Of a DNA stretch of 64,000 nucleotides, positions 2,629 to 10,641 are shown in pieces. Position 1 is the first letter of the stretch. Each line of letters starts with the position of its first letter. Source of the stretch: Pseudoxanthomonas dokdonensis (GTDB lineage Bacteria > Pseudomonadota > Gammaproteobacteria > Xanthomonadales > Xanthomonadaceae). A program made the translations under genes and the position numbers. The stretch covers positions 62,001 through 126,000 of the forward strand of contig NZ_LDJL01000002.1 in assembly GCF_001431405.1 (NCBI RefSeq), written 5' to 3'. The notes under the pieces are model-generated. The model was not told where the DNA came from. It searched no databases and worked only from the letters and a program-made list of their open reading frames with translations.

Positions 2629-4143
2629 ATGCCCGAGACCACCGACAGCAACGCTTGCAACCGCCCGATCCGACGCGTGGTCATCGCCGGTGGCGGTACC
2701 GCCGGCTGGATGGCGGCGGCGGCGCTGTCGCGCACGCTGGGCAAGGTACTGGACATCAAACTGATCGAATCCGACGAGATTTCCACCGTCGGCGTCGGCG
2801 AAGCGACGATTCCGACCCTGGTGACGTTCCATCGCCTGCTCGACATCAACGAGCAGGAATTCATGGCCGCCACCCAGGCCACGTTCAAGCTCGGCATCAG
2901 CTTCGAGAACTGGCGCGACGTCGGCCAGGACTACATCCATTCGTTCGGCATCACCGGCAAGGATCACTGGAGCGCCGGCTTCCAGCATTTCTGGCTGAAA
3001 GGCCGCGAGCGCCAACTGGCCAGTGACTACGGCGACTATTGCCTGGAGCTCAAGGCCTCGCAGCAGAACCGCTTCGCCCACCTGCCCAAGGGCGGCATGA
3101 ACTATGCGTTCCACATGGACGCCGGCCTGTATGCGCGCTACCTGCGCCGTTTCAGCGAGGGCTTCGGCGCGCAGCGCATCGAAGGCAAGATTGTCGAGGT
3201 ATGCAAGGACGACGCCAGCGGCCACATCCGCTCGCTGATGATGGACTCGGGCGAGGAGATCGAAGGCGATCTGTTCATCGACTGCACCGGCTTCCGCGGC
3301 CTGTTGATCGGGCAGACACTGGGTGCCCACTACCAGGACTGGTCGCAATGGCTGCATTGCGACAGCGCGATCGCGTTGCAGACCCGCTCGGTCGGCGAGG
3401 CGATACCGTTGACCCGTTCGATTGCACGCGAAGCCGGCTGGCAGTGGCGGATCCCGCTGCAACACCGGGTCGGCAACGGCATCGTCTTCAGCAGCCAGCA
3501 TTGGGACGACGAACAGGCCCTACGGACCCTGCGCGACAACATCGAAGGCGAGGTGCTGACCGAGCCACGGGTGATCCGCTTCAAGCCCGGCCAGCGCAGC
3601 GAGACCTGGATTGGCAACTGTGTCGCGCTGGGCCTGTCCAGCGGCTTCCTGGAGCCGATTGAATCGACCAGCATCCACCTCATCCAGCGCGGCATCGTGC
3701 GCCTGCTGCAGATGTTCCCGGCCAGCGGCATCAGCCCGGCCGACGTGGCCGAATACAACCAGCAGACCCGCAACGAAATCGAACACATCCGCGATTTCAT
3801 CATCCTGCATTACCACGTCACCCAGCGCCGCGACAGCGCGTTCTGGCGCGGCTGCCGCGAGATGGAGATTCCAGCATCGCTGCAACACCGCATCGATCTG
3901 TTCCGGCAGACCGGTCGCGTGTTCCGGGTGCCGAATGAACTGTTCGCGGAAAATTCCTGGGTCCAGGTCATGCTCGGCCAGGGCCTGGTGCCGGAGCAGC
4001 GGCATCCGGTCGCCGACCTGATGGACGACGGCGAGCTGGCCCGCTTCCTCGACGGCATCCGCGACCGGGTCAACAAGACCGTCGCGCAGCTGCCAGCGCA
4101 CCAGACTTACGTGCAGACCTACTGCCCCGGCGAGCGCATCTAA
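2629..4143 (+). CDS. Flavin-dependent tryptophan-halogenase-family protein
   Basis: A complete 504-residue member of the tryptophan halogenase family. The FAD-binding GGGTAGW motif is at residues 21-27 and a second flavin-contact motif, VGVGEATIP, at 54-62. Lys87, in ATFKLGISFENW, lines up with the catalytic lysine of PrnA (K79), which handles HOCl. The diagnostic WQWRIP is at 271-276, and GLSSGFLEPIESTS (335-348) carries the Glu-Ser pair. All hallmark residues are therefore present. It lies 23 bases after the cupin-like gene and is the last gene of the cluster; the next gene is convergent. Substrate is not predictable. Homologues near SapC genes have been suggested to act on larger or indolic substrates, but that is inference. 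Confidence 0.88.
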   Translation: MPETTDSNACNRPIRRVVIAGGGTAGWMAAAALSRTLGKVLDIKLIESDEISTVGVGEATIPTLVTFHRLLDINEQEFMAATQATFKLGISFENWRDVGQDYIHSFGITGKDHWSAGFQHFWLKGRERQLASDYGDYCLELKASQQNRFAHLPKGGMNYAFHMDAGLYARYLRRFSEGFGAQRIEGKIVEVCKDDASGHIRSLMMDSGEEIEGDLFIDCTGFRGLLIGQTLGAHYQDWSQWLHCDSAIALQTRSVGEAIPLTRSIAREAGWQWRIPLQHRVGNGIVFSSQHWDDEQALRTLRDNIEGEVLTEPRVIRFKPGQRSETWIGNCVALGLSSGFLEPIESTSIHLIQRGIVRLLQMFPASGISPADVAEYNQQTRNEIEHIRDFIILHYHVTQRRDSAFWRGCREMEIPASLQHRIDLFRQTGRVFRVPNELFAENSWVQVMLGQGLVPEQRHPVADLMDDGELARFLDGIRDRVNKTVAQLPAHQTYVQTYCPGERI

Positions 4144-4183: not shown

Positions 4184-4618
4184 CTAGGGCGCGTCCGCGG
4201 GCGCGGTACCGGCTGGCCTCGCACAGCCAGCAATCGCCTGGCCATCGTCGAAGGCAAGCTTGCCGGTGTATGGGAAATCGGCGCCGGACATGCTGTCCTG
4301 GCATGGCCTGGGGGTGATCCGCAGCATCACCCGACCGCTGGCATCGTGCGCGTTGACCAGGCGCCCGTCGGGCAGCAACTGGTTTTCGTCCACGCTCAGC
4401 GAGCGCTCGCCATCCAGCCCGCGCAACAACACCCGCCCGCCTTCCACGCTGCCCTGCCAGAACGGCTCATTGGTCGACAGCACGAAGTTGGCCGGCAGAT
4501 CCGCGCCGGCCGTGTAAAGCGGCGCTGGCGGGTCGCTGGCGATGCGGTGTGGTGCCGCGGCGCACGCCGTCAAGCCGAGCAGCAAGATCGTGACGACAAT
4601 GGATTGGCGCATGATCAT
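4184..4618 (-). CDS. Small lipoprotein with a COG3650-like domain
   Basis: A 144-residue predicted lipoprotein. The chosen ATG at 4618 follows a GGAGG at 4623-4627; a second ATG at 4612 is also possible. The N-terminus is a hydrophobic signal ending in the lipobox LTAC (Cys near residue 18). The mature part contains NEPFW followed by a GRVLLRGL strand, resembling the COG3650-type membrane-anchored domain that begins with an EPFW motif. It ends with a Cys pair (PCQDSM... AGCARP). It is convergent with the halogenase gene and separated by 76 bases from the export operon that lies upstream of it on the same strand. Function is unknown; an envelope role is likely. Confidence 0.6.
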   Translation of the reverse strand: MIMRQSIVVTILLLGLTACAAAPHRIASDPPAPLYTAGADLPANFVLSTNEPFWQGSVEGGRVLLRGLDGERSLSVDENQLLPDGRLVNAHDASGRVMLRITPRPCQDSMSGADFPYTGKLAFDDGQAIAGCARPAGTAPADAP

Positions 4619-4693
4619 GTTTCCTCCAGGCAATCCAGATGGCTGACGAGTATCACCAGCGCTCACCATCGCAGCGTGAACGCGTTGACATCC

Positions 4694-6148
4694 TCAGCGC
4701 GTAGCAGAAACATCCGCGGTGGCTATCGGCGCTGTCGTGGCCAGATCGAAATCACCGCCCAATGCCAGATGCAGACCCACGCGCCGGCTCAATCGTTCGC
4801 GCTGTACCTGCAGCAACACCACCTGCGCGGCGTACACGGCCAGTCCGCTCTGGGCCACGGCACGCATATCGATCTTGCCAACGCCGAATGCGCTCTGTTG
4901 CAGTTCCAGCGTGCGCTGGTTGTCTACCAAGGCGGCCCGCAGGATCCGTTCGCGTTCGGCCAGTACCTGCTCGGCGTCCAGCGCGTCTTCAACTTCCTGC
5001 ACCGCCTGCAACGCCAGTCGCGCATAGTCGGCCAGTGCCTGCTCCTGCTCGGCATTGCGCAACTGTACCTGTGCCGACAGCGTGCCGCCGAGGAAGATCG
5101 GCGCGACCAGACTGCCGCCGGCACTCTCGATGCTGCGATCGCGGCCATTCTCCAGACCATTCAGATCGTCGGCGATACGACCGGCGTTGGCGCCCAGGGT
5201 CAGACCTGGCAGGCGCGCGGCCTTGGCTTCGCCAACCCGGTTGAATGCCGCCGCTACCCGGTGTTCGGCTGCAATCAGGTCCGGGCGCCGCTCCAATACC
5301 TGCGCCGGTATACCCGCGGGTACCGGGTCGGGCATGGTCGGTAGCGCGCCGGCTTCCAGCTCAGCGCGGGGGAATCGCCCTAACAGCACTTCCAGCGCCC
5401 GTGATGCCTGCCGATGGGCCAGGTCAATCTGCTGCACCGAGTCCTGGTACAGGGCCAGATTCGCTCTCGCCAGCGTCACGTCCTGCTCGCTGCCGGCGCC
5501 CACCTTCCAGCGTTGTTGGCTCAGCGTCACCAGCTGTTGGCCGCTATCGGCCATCGCCATTGCGATCTCGCGCTGCTGCGCGGTTTCGGCGACTAGGAAC
5601 CAAGCGCGTGCCGTGGCCGCGGCAATCGATTGGCGGGCGAAGCGATAGTCGGCGCTGCTCGCATCCCGGCTGGCGACGGCGGCGTTGCGCGCATAGCGCA
5701 AGCGGCCCCACAAATCGATCTCCCACCAGACTTTCAAGACCGCGCCGCTGACCACCGCGACCAGATCGTCAATCGGCTTGCTGCTGGCACGTGCCAGTAC
5801 TCCAATCGCCGGATACAACTGGCCTTGGGCAACATCAACCGCGGCATCGGCCTGTTGCACCCTGGTCGCGGCGATCCGCAGATCAGTGTTGTGGGCAATC
5901 GCTTCGGCGACCAGCGCATCAAGGCGCCGGTCGCCGAAGCTGGCGATCCAGGCGTCACTGACCTCGCCGGTGGCCGCAACGCTGGCCCACTGCGCCGGCG
6001 GCTGCGCGCCGCCGAGCGCCTGTGCCTGGATCTGCTGGTGATCCGGTGGCGACAGCGTCGCACAGCCACCGGCCAGCCACAGCCAAGCCAGCGCCAAGCC
6101 CAGCGAATGCTGCGAGGGTGCCACTGCTGGAGTGCCGGAGCGCGCCAT
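4694..6148 (-). CDS. Outer-membrane efflux channel (NodT/OprM-type factor)
   Basis: A 484-residue outer-membrane factor of tripartite export pumps. I chose the ATG at 6148 because it is preceded by a GAGGCGGTG stretch and starts just after the stop of the membrane-fusion gene; a longer frame runs 9 codons further. The signal ends in a lipoprotein-like LAGGC (about residue 30). The rest shows the two internally repeated helical OEP regions typical of TolC/OprM, including RRPDLIAAEHRVAAA near the repeat boundary and a long helix rich in Ala, Gln and Arg near the end. It is the last gene of a three-gene minus-strand operon with a DUF3302 protein and a YibH-type membrane-fusion protein. No RND or ABC pump is present, so the inner-membrane partner is unclear. 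Confidence 0.88.
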   Translation of the reverse strand: MARSGTPAVAPSQHSLGLALAWLWLAGGCATLSPPDHQQIQAQALGGAQPPAQWASVAATGEVSDAWIASFGDRRLDALVAEAIAHNTDLRIAATRVQQADAAVDVAQGQLYPAIGVLARASSKPIDDLVAVVSGAVLKVWWEIDLWGRLRYARNAAVASRDASSADYRFARQSIAAATARAWFLVAETAQQREIAMAMADSGQQLVTLSQQRWKVGAGSEQDVTLARANLALYQDSVQQIDLAHRQASRALEVLLGRFPRAELEAGALPTMPDPVPAGIPAQVLERRPDLIAAEHRVAAAFNRVGEAKAARLPGLTLGANAGRIADDLNGLENGRDRSIESAGGSLVAPIFLGGTLSAQVQLRNAEQEQALADYARLALQAVQEVEDALDAEQVLAERERILRAALVDNQRTLELQQSAFGVGKIDMRAVAQSGLAVYAAQVVLLQVQRERLSRRVGLHLALGGDFDLATTAPIATADVSATR

Positions 6149-7972: not shown

Positions 7973-8659
7973 ATCGCCCCCTTGCCAACGACCTCGATTC
8001 ACGGAGTGGACTTCGCACCCAGGCGCGACGTCGCTTCAGTTCGCTCGACTGTTCCAGTTCGTCCCGCCGCTGTCACATTTGCCAGCGAAGTAAATACCCT
8101 TTGCCGTTAACTTTTGTTACGTATTTGTTAAATTCCGTGCTTCAGCTTGTGTCGTGCCGTCGCGCCAATACAGCACCAACGCAGCTCTTTTGTGTTGACT
8201 CATAACGCATCATCCGCCGGCCAGCGGACAGCGATTGCCGCTGACCGAAGAGCAGCTACCAACAGCCGCAGCGTCCTTGACGACGACAGCGTGCCGACTA
8301 TCGACCAAGAATTCGAAACGGAGGGAGATGTAACAGGATGGTGGAGCGCGAAGAGTTCGAGCCTTCAGTAAAGAGATGGAACGCCACGCAAATTGTGCCT
8401 TTTCAACAAGCAGCCAGGGTCCCGGATTTCTCGGGTCGATTGCTTGGAACCGCGATAGCGGTGCACCAGTTTTCTATCTTTCCGACTCTGGCGCAGGGTG
8501 AGATGTGTCCATATAACCAGCACGGGGCCTTCGTTGGTCCGCTTATACCTCCGTTTGTTAGTCGCATCCGGGGATAACAGGCCATGCGTTACGCTATGGA
8601 TACGTCGTATCACCAGACCCCTCTATTGATAGTTGGACCTCTACCTCAAGGAGTACGGG
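7973..8659. other. Gene-free stretch at left edge of the accessory pocket
   Basis: About 690 bases with no convincing gene. Bases 8100-8140 are AT-rich and lie upstream of the minus-strand export operon, so its promoter is probably here. Short open frames in this stretch have no family features and are not called. The stretch contains a diverged tRNA-Lys 3'-like fragment at 8339-8366 and a GTTAGTC heptamer at 8557-8563. Base composition is visibly lower in GC than the flanking core genes, consistent with acquired or decaying DNA. Confidence 0.5.
8339..8366 (-). pseudogene. Diverged tRNA-Lys 3'-end-like fragment
   Basis: Read on the minus strand this 28-base stretch ends in CCA and has the shape of a tRNA 3' end: seven acceptor bases, a T-arm stem GAAGG/CTCTTC-like and a seven-base T loop with TCGA. 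It matches the 3' end of the intact tRNA-Lys at 22 of 28 positions by eye, without gaps. It may be an old attachment-site copy, but the match could be the general similarity shared by all tRNA 3' halves. Confidence 0.35.
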
Positions 8660-9016
8660 ATGCTGAAAGAACCACTGCTTGCTGTTTGTTTGGCTTTCGC
8701 TGTGACCGCATGCGCAACGTCGGAAAACCCAGCCAGTCAGATTCGCCTCGATGCAACATCGGATGCGACAGCCATGAGCAGCTTTTCAGCAATGGCCGAA
8801 GCGCTTACGTCTGAGAATCGTCAAGAGCTGTTGGTCGCAATGCTCAAGCTTAATATGACTGGCGTAAACAGCGTCTATGAAGTTATTCAGAATCCTGATC
8901 TGCAATCACCTTCCATTGCACGCATAAAGGACAAAGTCGATGGGATGACTGCTCAGCAGATCATTGACCTGGCCAACCGCACATCTTCAGTTGAGGCTGA
9001 AGTAACGGCCGAGTGA
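8660..9016 (+). CDS. Small lipoprotein, DUF6694-like
   Basis: A 118-residue predicted lipoprotein. The start MLKEPLLAVCL at 8660 follows AAGGAG with a six-base spacer; the upstream ATG at 8633 has no such site. The signal ends in the lipobox VTAC (Cys near residue 18). The mature protein is short and helical, with a run from RLDATSD to a closing GMTAQQIIDLANR. That pattern (a conserved ID-T start and a final GMTA..II..A) resembles the DUF6694 family of small Xanthomonad lipoproteins, recalled and not searched. It has lower GC and different codon use from the core genes, and it sits in the accessory pocket. The stop codon is followed directly by GGCCTAAT, close to the R'' core of an attC site. 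Function unknown. Confidence 0.6.
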   Translation: MLKEPLLAVCLAFAVTACATSENPASQIRLDATSDATAMSSFSAMAEALTSENRQELLVAMLKLNMTGVNSVYEVIQNPDLQSPSIARIKDKVDGMTAQQIIDLANRTSSVEAEVTAE

Positions 9017-9278: not shown

Positions 9279-9512
9279 CTACCTGGAGCGTGCTACAAAA
9301 AAATTGAAAAGCCAGCGCCAACCATTCGGTGCACACACAATCGCAACGGAAGAACATGCCAGCGTGCCCAGCACCATCCAAATCGAAACGGATTTTTCGC
9401 CTCCCTCAGCACCGAGTCCGGGAAGAATTACACCAAGAATGATAGCTCCGCTCAGACTAATAGCGAAGAGAACGAACCAATAGGCCTTTGGCAAACTGTT
9501 GTTCGCGCTCAT
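9279..9512 (-). CDS. Small hypothetical membrane protein
   Basis: A 77-residue frame with two predicted membrane helices (about residues 11-32 and 44-62) and a basic tail. It starts 16 bases inside the left copy of the 56-bp tRNA-Lys duplication, pointing away from it. I see no strong ribosome-binding site and recognise no family, so it could be a chance frame. The hydrophobic pattern and its compact fit between the methylase relic and the duplication favour a real gene or a recent remnant of one. Confidence 0.4.
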   Translation of the reverse strand: MSANNSLPKAYWFVLFAISLSGAIILGVILPGLGAEGGEKSVSIWMVLGTLACSSVAIVCAPNGWRWLFNFFVARSR

Positions 9513-9528
9513 ACTTGACTGGTTGTCC

Positions 9529-9584
9529 TGATTTGATTGGTGGGCCGTGAAGGATTCGAACCTTCGACCAAAAGATTAAAAGTC
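9529..9584. repeat. attL-like 56-bp direct repeat of the tRNA-Lys 3' half
   Basis: This is identical over 56 bases to 10480-10535. It contains the tRNA-Lys sequence from position 30 (anticodon stem) through the CCA end plus nine bases downstream. Anticodon-to-3'-end duplication is the classic trace left by tyrosine-recombinase integration at a tRNA gene. The identity stops abruptly at base 9584. Enclosed DNA is only about 0.9 kb and encodes no recombinase. Confidence 0.85.
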
Positions 9585-9873
9585 ACGTGGATTTAGCCGT
9601 GGCAGCAAGCACTTAGCACCGACTATTTTACCGGTTTGATGCCGTGAAACCCGCAACTCATGGTGCACCAGCCTCCTAGTTTTACCGGGCCGAGATCCAG
9701 CTTCAGTGTCGGCCATCATTCGAGGACAGGCCACATCGTGTAACCGGTTGTGCATCAGCTTGTTAGTCGGACCCAGCCGCCATAAGATTGAGCTGCATCA
9801 TGGGGATGGCGCACTGTATGCTGCACTTTGGGATAAGTCGTTTAAATGGATCCCGGGGTCTAGCTATCAGGTC
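9585..9873. other. Non-coding interior of the small tRNA-Lys island
   Basis: About 290 bases between the left repeat and the cassette start. No gene is supported. A GTTAGTC heptamer lies at 9762-9768, one base off the integron core-site consensus. Short plus-strand frames run through here into the cassette gene, but none has a ribosome-binding site. Confidence 0.45.
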
Positions 9874-9904
9874 GTTAGACCGCTATCAATTTGCAGGGGG
9901 AGCT

Positions 9905-10345
9905 GTGACATTCATCTCGTACATCATCGTGCTTGTTGGCGGGCCAATCGTTCTGACAATCAGCACGCTCATACTTGGTTTCCTAATCGCCTTGCTCTTG
10001 GCGTGGACATCTATCCGTTTCCGCGTGGCAGTTGCAGGCTTTGCATCTGGCGTTTTAGGGGTTGTATGCGTTTGGCTGTTCGGTAACTGGATCTTTGAGG
10101 GCTTCGCTCATGAGCCACGGGCTTCGCTACATCCAAGCATCGCTGTGGCTATAGCAATTGCCATCCCATTCTTCAATGACCTCAATCACACCAAGAAGGT
10201 CAAGGAAGCTACGAGCATGCTCCCAGCTCACCTCGATGAAGCTCATGCTCATGCTCAGGTCACAGGTCGCTATGCGCAATTGCTTGGGTACGTCGTTGGC
10301 GCTGTTATCACTTTCGGCTGGCTCGCGTCTCGTGTCGCGGCCTAA
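9905..10345 (+). CDS. Cassette-borne hypothetical membrane protein
   Basis: A 146-residue protein starting at a GTG that follows AGGGGGAG closely; the longer frame reaching back to 9788 lacks a ribosome site and crosses the cassette boundary. It has hydrophobic segments at about residues 4-30, 36-60, 72-90 and 125-143, with a His- and Ala-rich charged stretch (DEAHAHAQVTGRYA) between the last two. Stop and attC core overlap. Cassette genes are usually promoterless and read from an upstream promoter, which is not evident here. No family is recognised. Codon use is less GC-rich than neighbouring core genes, consistent with transfer. Confidence 0.6.
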   Translation: MTFISYIIVLVGGPIVLTISTLILGFLIALLLAWTSIRFRVAVAGFASGVLGVVCVWLFGNWIFEGFAHEPRASLHPSIAVAIAIAIPFFNDLNHTKKVKEATSMLPAHLDEAHAHAQVTGRYAQLLGYVVGAVITFGWLASRVAA

Positions 10346-10389
10346 CAGCGGACACCGCCTCGCGGCGCCGTTTAACTCGGGCGTTTGCG
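10340..10389 (+). other. attC-like recombination site (59-base-element type)
   Basis: The site begins with GCCTAAC (10340-10346), holds a short hairpin centre CCGC-CTC-GCGG near 10356-10366, and ends with TTTAACTCGGGCG followed by GTTTGCG (10383-10389). The last six bases differ from consensus, as expected when the crossover G joins foreign DNA. Taken with TTAGAC at the cassette's left end, the circular form would carry GTTAGAC, which pairs with GCCTAAC except for one position. Confidence 0.65.
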
Positions 10390-10479
10390 TGGAACATCCA
10401 CTGCGTCTTCGAATACCTAAACGGGCTGTTTCGGTAAAATTCGCCGCAGCGAGGCGACGCAAAGAAGCCCACAAGGTGT

Positions 10480-10535
10480 TGATTTGATTGGTGGGCCGTG
10501 AAGGATTCGAACCTTCGACCAAAAGATTAAAAGTC
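10480..10535. repeat. attR-like 56-bp direct repeat inside tRNA-Lys
   Basis: This is the tRNA-side copy of the 56-base duplication (other copy 9529-9584). It overlaps the 3' half of the intact tRNA-Lys from position 30 onward plus nine bases past CCA, so the tRNA was left functional after integration. Confidence 0.85.
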
Positions 10536-10564
10536 TTCTGCTCTACCGACTGAGCTAACGGCCC
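10489..10564 (-). tRNA. tRNA-Lys(UUU)
   Basis: A 76-base tRNA with encoded CCA. The acceptor stem GGGCCGT pairs with ACGGCCC, the D-arm is GCTC/GAGC, the anticodon stem is GAAGA/TCTTT with loop CTTTTAA (anticodon TTT, bases 10531-10529), and the T-arm is GAAGG/CCTTC around TTCGAAT. All arms pair fully. It lies downstream of queC on the same strand, behind a terminator, and serves as the integration site for the adjacent island. Confidence 0.97.
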
Positions 10565-10566
10565 AC

Positions 10567-10593
10567 TGAAAACCCCGACGTTGCGTCGGGGTT
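10567..10593 (-). terminator. Rho-independent terminator after queC
   Basis: Read on the minus strand: AACCCCGACG, a 3-base loop, CGTCGGGGTT, then TTCA. The 10-bp perfect stem ends in a short T run and lies between the end of queC and the tRNA-Lys, closing the long queuosine / Tol-Pal transcript. Confidence 0.75.
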
Positions 10594-10641
10594 GGCTATT
10601 CTACCCCAAGCCGTGGCCGGGGTGAAATGCGACTGGCTGAA

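Follow-up and report, generated by a model that had tools for sequence, protein, structure and literature searches.

The stretch of DNA analysed here (the window, 64,000 nucleotides) carries next to a tRNA-Lys gene a small unit, U2, in which a conserved integron leader precedes a single gene cassette. This unit is probably a relict integron platform without an integrase gene, seated on a mini-island, which would have spread as a small tRNA-targeted unit and may still drive the expression of its cassette. Integrase-less units of a similar kind are scattered among relatives of this bacterium, and cassette genes may be spread and expressed through them in a way that has been overlooked.

A leader-cassette unit bounded by tRNA-Lys repeats

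The tRNA-Lys (TTT) gene that would have served as the integration site lies at 10489-10564 on the minus strand (ARAGORN; Rfam RF00005, 78 bits). A direct repeat of 56 nt, made up of the 3' half of the tRNA-Lys gene plus 9 nt, is located at 10480-10535, and a distal copy of this 3' half at 9529-9584 matches it at 56 of 56 positions (100% identity). The unit is thus flanked on both sides by a tRNA 3'-end repeat and leaves the tRNA-Lys gene intact, as expected of an element integrated at a tRNA gene, and the tRNA-Lys setting given in the initial annotation of this DNA is confirmed. The two repeats stand 951 bp apart, start to start, which delimits U2, and they enclose a head of 155 nt that reaches from the tRNA fragment to the leader (9585-9739, by sequence comparison), the leader, the cassette and a further 96 nt. 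Over 150 nt (9538-9687), this end of the unit shares 83% identity with the inner end, on the distal side, of a 39-kb tRNA-Lys island in another genome (G017).

A decayed tandem unit, U1, lies upstream (~8339-9016) and shows the same order as U2, with a tRNA-like fragment and head followed by a leader and a gene. The head of U1, together with a worn tRNA-Lys 3' fragment (8339-8484), aligns to the head of U2 with a score of 72, the best of 300 shuffles reaching 33. Its leader (8536-8638, plus strand; 55.4 bits, and by alignment) carries the core GTTGGAC at 8632-8638 and has lost 27 nt, the -10 element among them. The gene behind it (8660-9016, plus strand) is DUF6694-like (Pfam PF20404, 24.5 bits against a cut-off of 24.3), and no attC was recognised after this gene with the covariance model R2 described below. 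The tails of U1 and U2 have no repeat in common (score 18, with 294 of 300 shuffles as high). Between the U1 gene and the U2 repeat, a hydrophobic ORF of 77 aa (9279-9512, minus strand) is YrhC-like, at 21.1 bits against a cut-off of 27.

The gene queC neighbours tRNA-Lys in 19 of the 20 loci that were compared. Three genes from the left-hand side of the window were tested, and none was found beside tRNA-Lys in the loci compared, so the 3' side of this tRNA gene appears to be variable. Further to the left, at 2629-4143 (plus strand), the window encodes a protein of 504 aa that we take to resemble tryptophan halogenase-type flavoproteins.

The cassette is real and its attC site is broken

The cassette begins at the recombination core GTTAGAC (G/TTAGAC; 9874-9880, plus strand), whose seven nucleotides are the last of the leader and the first of the cassette. 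In the alignment, this core occupies the same leader position as GTTAGGC in the integrase-linked copies, and it provides the GTTRRRY motif expected at the 5' boundary of an integron cassette. The cassette proper spans ~9875-10383. Its GTG start codon (9905) follows the core after 24 bases, with a ribosome-binding site, AGGGGGAG, recognised by eye at 9895-9902 (plus strand). The cassette contains a single short ORF of 146 codons (9905-10345, plus strand), the TAA stop of which (10343-10345) falls within GCCTAAC (10340-10346), the R'' element, so that the gene ends at the attC site as in other integron cassettes. TTTAACTCGGGCG at 10371-10383 represents L'. All of these elements had been listed in the initial annotation, and all are present in the sequence.

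The hydrophobic product is, judged by eye, probably a small membrane protein. As had been noted, it has no recognised family: Pfam, NCBIfam and PADLOC gave zero matches at the limits used, PHROGs a single match at E 0.81, and a comparison with plasmids no match. Among 395 genomes of the family, the protein has one match besides itself, with 28% identity (E 9e-4) and two internal stops.

The 3' end of the cassette was examined with a covariance model of attC sites, R2, built here from 23 sites of 60 nt in arrays of related genomes. The structure of the model was written by hand and is supported by covariation, with 25 cells changed on both sides compared with 11.5 in shuffles. R2 recovers a decayed attC at 10340-10389 (plus strand) with 16.8 bits, at E 0.0013 in a search of 2.8 kb with filters off and E 0.39 in a search of 845 kb, and no other site in the window is matched with an E of 0.5 or lower. 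The score is this low because model positions 8-17, ten bases that make up the L'' arm, have been lost and R' (GTTTGCG, 10383-10389) does not conform to GTTRRRY; R'' is intact (10340-10346) and L' is present (10371-10383), and the paired R''/R' and L''/L' arms that characterise an attC are not formed. Single-stranded DNA folding of the cassette end is likewise no better than in shuffles (z 0.41 and 0.49 for the two strands). In four arrays linked to an integrase gene, 35 of 36 attCs score 55-92 bits and the remaining one 20.7; weaker attCs are common in arrays without an integrase.

The cassette is real, but its attC is broken. The earlier description of a complete cassette with a hairpin has to be revised accordingly: the proposed covariance search does locate the site, at a weak score, and the proposed fold is lost in the background. 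A weak attC combined with homologues occurring only outside cassettes would have spoken against a cassette altogether; the score is indeed weak, and no homologue outside cassettes was found in the 395 family genomes. With one attC match, the window also falls short of a CALIN as IntegronFinder 2 defines it by default (two or more attC sites with no intI nearby).

The leader is homologous to the attI/Pc region of an integron lineage

The leader of U2 (9740-9880, plus strand) reaches 117.5 bits (E 7.8e-35) on a profile to which the window copy itself contributed. BLAST matches this leader at 75-78% identity to copies in three other loci (L027-L029), and these matches need no profile. A search of 61 genomes with 9380-10640 returned, besides tRNA matches, at least ten genomes of the same genus, in which the similarity is confined to ~9744-9881. 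The aligned leaders are ~139 bp long and end in GTTAGGC or a variant of it, after which the cassette follows.

In five loci (L091, L029, L095, L145 and L146), the leader adjoins a divergent integron integrase gene, and the first cassette begins at the core, with the cores aligned. The leaders of L145 and L146 are diverged (~55 bits), and the L029 integrase reaches 373 bits on the integron-integrase model, whose cut-off is 265. This integrase lineage is ~50% identical to the commoner integrase of the genus, the loci of which are without the leader. The commoner integrase ('type A') was tried as the source of the leader and rejected, there being no convincing profile match in L041-L049 (best E 0.39). 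Since homologues of the leader adjoin a divergent intI in five loci, 9740-9880 is the predicted attI/Pc region of that lineage, and the view that the cassette has no attI cannot be maintained. The accompanying statement that there is no integron integrase is borne out: none scores above the family cut-off in the whole assembly, which consists of 34 contigs with other attC arrays at contig ends, so that an intI could hide in a gap. Without an intI next to attI, U2 does not qualify as a complete integron. A structured, riboswitch-like leader was also considered and dropped (RNAalifold on 13 sequences, covariation term +0.45, 3 of 27 pairs changed on both sides).

Within the leader, a putative promoter is formed by the -35 hexamer TTGTTA (9760-9765, plus strand) and the -10 hexamer TAAGAT (9783-9788, plus strand), separated by 17 nt and conserved in solo copies. 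The comparison covered 52 solo, i.e. integrase-less, copies of near full length and at least 80 bits. The 17-nt spacer is present in 52 of 52 and both hexamers are exact in 38, the rest being off at 1-2 positions; shuffles matched the degenerate pattern in 3.2 of 52. At 1.76 and 1.93 bits per column, compared with a leader mean of 1.32 and with 1.17 for the recombination core, the hexamers are the most conserved among the motifs tested in the leader. A sigma-70 consensus scan of the window did not list them, and the promoter claim therefore rests on conservation. This conservation fits selection for expression once the integrase was gone, in copies that were chosen by similarity and among which conserved ones are thus favoured. 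The cassette gene would today be expressed from Pc.

Leader copies are dispersed across genomes

A search with a leader model, R1 (E up to 1e-5), found the leader in 76 of 395 genomes of the family, with up to seven copies per genome (G017 and G412), and in 24 of 36 genomes of the same genus. Of 299 genomes sampled from the order, 33 match, 13 of them from a second family. A pattern scan for the leader yielded ten stretches, in Pseudoxanthomonas, Stenotrophomonas, Lysobacter and Dyella. From the fetched loci, 86 leader matches were kept. Of these, 76 reach 50 bits or more and lie in fetched DNA that contains no integrase; for two of the 76, less than 1.2 kb of sequence is available upstream, and two pairs among them are near-duplicates. 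attC sites follow 68 of the 76 copies in the fetched DNA (one in 29 copies, two in 22, three in 12 and more in 5). In genomes with several copies, the nearest relative lies in the same genome for 4 of 13 copies, which gives no sign that leader copies arose mainly by local multiplication.

Many solo copies in different genera and chromosomal places have, by eye, one common left flank of ~55 nt, unlike that of the integrase-linked copies. The window's own genome (G000) contains ten strong attCs near the ends of other contigs (L174-L176; contigs C2, C14 and C31). On C14 and C31, it also has a second, different type of attI-like leader with cassettes and no intI beside it.

Palindromic repeats of the approximate form TGTCCGCTT-8nt-AAGCGGACA bound many leader-cassette units, the left-end type being found at 34 of 70 copies, the right-end type at 25 and both at 17 (shuffles, 0). 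The left type also stands just beyond intI in the integrase-linked loci L091, L029, L095 and L146, and at L027 pairs arranged as right-34 nt-left separate small non-integron genes as well. Near the window's leader, no palindrome was found with 4 mismatches allowed, so these repeats have no part in the explanation there. Extragenic repeats have been reported near integrons of pseudomonads and xanthomonads; the literature searched here yielded no such report.

Similar units stand at several tRNA genes

At a tRNA-Lys gene of another genus (L102 in G412), a 76-nt repeat at 98.7% identity bounds 1,305 bp with one intact attC, and at a tRNA-Thr gene of the same genome (L098) two leaders stand in tandem with tRNA fragments of 58 and 45 nt. 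Two units at tRNA-Asn (L121 in G279 and L028 in G014) are flanked by repeats of 45-47 nt that are 100% identical. Beside tRNA-Met, an insertion of ~1.95 kb with a leader and three attCs is found in G268 and again in G173. G338 and G212 lack it, their tRNA abutting the downstream sequence directly, which provides the empty site for this unit; its bounding repeat is short. Three more loci (L050, L143 and L093) have a leader and a tRNA-Lys fragment with no tRNA gene seen. The larger frames tested in the tRNA-bounded units encode a trypsin-like protein, an IS110-type transposase and two family-less proteins, and no integrases. When the leader copies were screened for repeats in general, 10 of 79 were flagged, several of these for nothing more than palindromes or unrelated repeats. 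The tRNA-bounded units make up a minority, with six insertions among ~70 loci.

The IS110-family transposase gene was assigned by Pfam and lies at 4237-5394 in the L028 array. In L050, L093 and L105, the last attC of the array is directly followed by a terminal CAACTGTCTTGTGA, which may reflect insertion of an IS1111-attC element.

Of what the initial annotation had proposed, transport of the cassette by another mobile element has held up best: leader and cassette together form a small tRNA-bounded unit, and similar ones are found in different genera and at different tRNA genes.

Origin of the unit

The relict-platform reading starts from a chromosomal integron lineage of the family, in which a leader of ~139 bp would combine Pc (TTGTTA-17-TAAGAT) with attI. 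Leaders with a few cassettes, minus the integrase gene, would then have become dispersed as units. The tRNA 3'-end repeats that bound some units point to a tyrosine integrase not encoded in the unit, and entry at tRNA 3' ends may have been catalysed by such an enzyme encoded elsewhere. The 39-kb tRNA-Lys island of G017 (L037 and L038; C4:1205018-1244193) could serve as a model for the element that supplied the integrase to the window unit, because its distal inner end is 83% identical to that of the window unit and an integrase-like gene lies beside its tRNA; the product of 400 aa scores 25.8 bits with Pfam, just below the cut-off of 27.1. The distal inner end is the only part of this island that resembles the window. 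In the window, two units would have accreted in tandem at tRNA-Lys, U1 having since decayed with loss of its -10 element and U2 retaining promoter, ORF and tRNA repeats beside its broken attC. The U2 cassette may have been inserted at attI by an IntI that acted long ago or elsewhere; it would now be hardly excisable and simply a gene under Pc. This reading draws on the anatomy of the unit, the homology of its leader to integrase-linked attI regions, the tRNA repeats, the decay and the dispersal in other genomes. Against it stand the minority share of tRNA-bounded units and the fact that no integrase acting in trans was identified.

Cis-mobilizable elements are known for ICEs, and U2 might correspondingly be the deletion remnant of a large tRNA-Lys island that carried an integron and lost everything but the integron leader, a single cassette and the two att sites. 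The 83% identity of the U2 head to the end of the G017 island and the integrase-like gene beside the tRNA there would suit such an origin. However, units with this minimal content are also found at tRNA-Lys in another genus and at tRNA-Thr and tRNA-Asn, and the fetched ends of the G017 island contain no leader beyond a match at E 0.066, which makes a remnant of this kind unlikely in our judgement. A slightly smaller chance is given to decay in place, in which whole integrons arrived, on islands or otherwise, and each lost intI by deletion, so that an integrase-less unit never moved. The solo copies of L027, L033, L108 and L114 keep left flanks that resemble, by eye, those of integrase-linked copies, the window's genome has its other attI type with cassettes and no intI, and Xanthomonas is reported to have lost intI frequently, in the accessible part of one study (PMC12444791). 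Independent deletions would, however, not be expected to leave the ~55-nt left flank common to many solo copies across genera. Units of 1-2 kb holding little else also stand at several different tRNA genes.

The two remaining explanations concern the cassette itself. The initial annotation had raised secondary-site insertion, in which an integron integrase put a lone cassette into an attG site of the tRNA-Lys island, and the right boundary G/TTTGCG would fit a G/TT site. Yet the cassette starts at the crossover core of a conserved attI leader and not in unrelated DNA, so this reading fails; it was dropped once the 130-bp stretch upstream proved common to integrase-linked loci, and we regard it as very improbable. 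That an ordinary ORF merely has cassette-like letters by chance might be argued from the weak attC score and a hairpin no better than shuffles, but with a leader of 117.5 bits directly upstream and with core, ORF, R'' with the stop codon and L' in the expected order, such a coincidence is scarcely credible.

Beyond the window, the relict-platform reading can be extended, tentatively and as a possibility short of probable, to a class of non-autonomous mobile elements. Such miniature integrons would consist of a promoter-bearing attI leader and one to few cassettes without an integrase. They would spread between genera, enter tRNA 3' ends via the integrases of other elements, accrete in tandem and serve any IntI as a landing and expression platform.

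Relation to known systems

As a rule, cassettes outside integrons are tallied from their attC sites only and taken for debris or stray insertions. Should many of them stand behind a complete attI/Pc leader, they would be expressed, capture-ready platforms that are invisible to integron surveys. Cassettes would then have a concrete means of leaving an integron along with their promoter, which would also explain how short cassette arrays reach many chromosomal places in one genome. According to the portion of its description that was available, IntegronFinder 2 detects attI sites of class 1 only and, in its default setting, leaves a lone attC unreported, the minimum being two (PMC9024848), and these limits would explain why such units go unseen. 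Integrase loss and off-integron cassette clusters are already known, as far as the available text of the Xanthomonas study goes (PMC12444791); the complete attI/Pc leader before them is apparently new, since we recognised in the literature searched no description of integrase-less attI/Pc units or of tRNA-bounded units of such a kind.

The attI/Pc region of chromosomal integrons has, as here, a promoter and a GTTRRRY core, and it is located with a divergent intI on one side and the first cassette on the other, as in the five homologues. In contrast, the window and the 76 copies examined have no intI beside the leader in the fetched DNA. CIMEs and tRNA-gene islands are bounded by tRNA 3'-end repeats, lack an integrase and accrete in tandem, all of which they have in common with the window unit. 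Unlike these, the window unit is less than 1 kb long and holds an integron leader and one cassette, and several tRNA genes have units with this content.

In Xanthomonas, about half of the genomes carry cassette clusters without intI away from ilvD, which, like the window unit, have no nearby intI and lie off the main integron, as described in the accessible sections of that study (PMC12444791). The units found here differ from such clusters in keeping the attI/Pc leader, and the window has a single decayed attC. The Delta-attI-type gene cassettes of mobile integrons, in the part of the report available (PMC12901181), resemble the window unit in that attI sequence travels with the cassette. In those cassettes, the attI piece stands at the 3' side and in class 1 or 2 arrays, whereas in the window a full, predicted promoter-bearing leader stands 5' of a chromosomal cassette.
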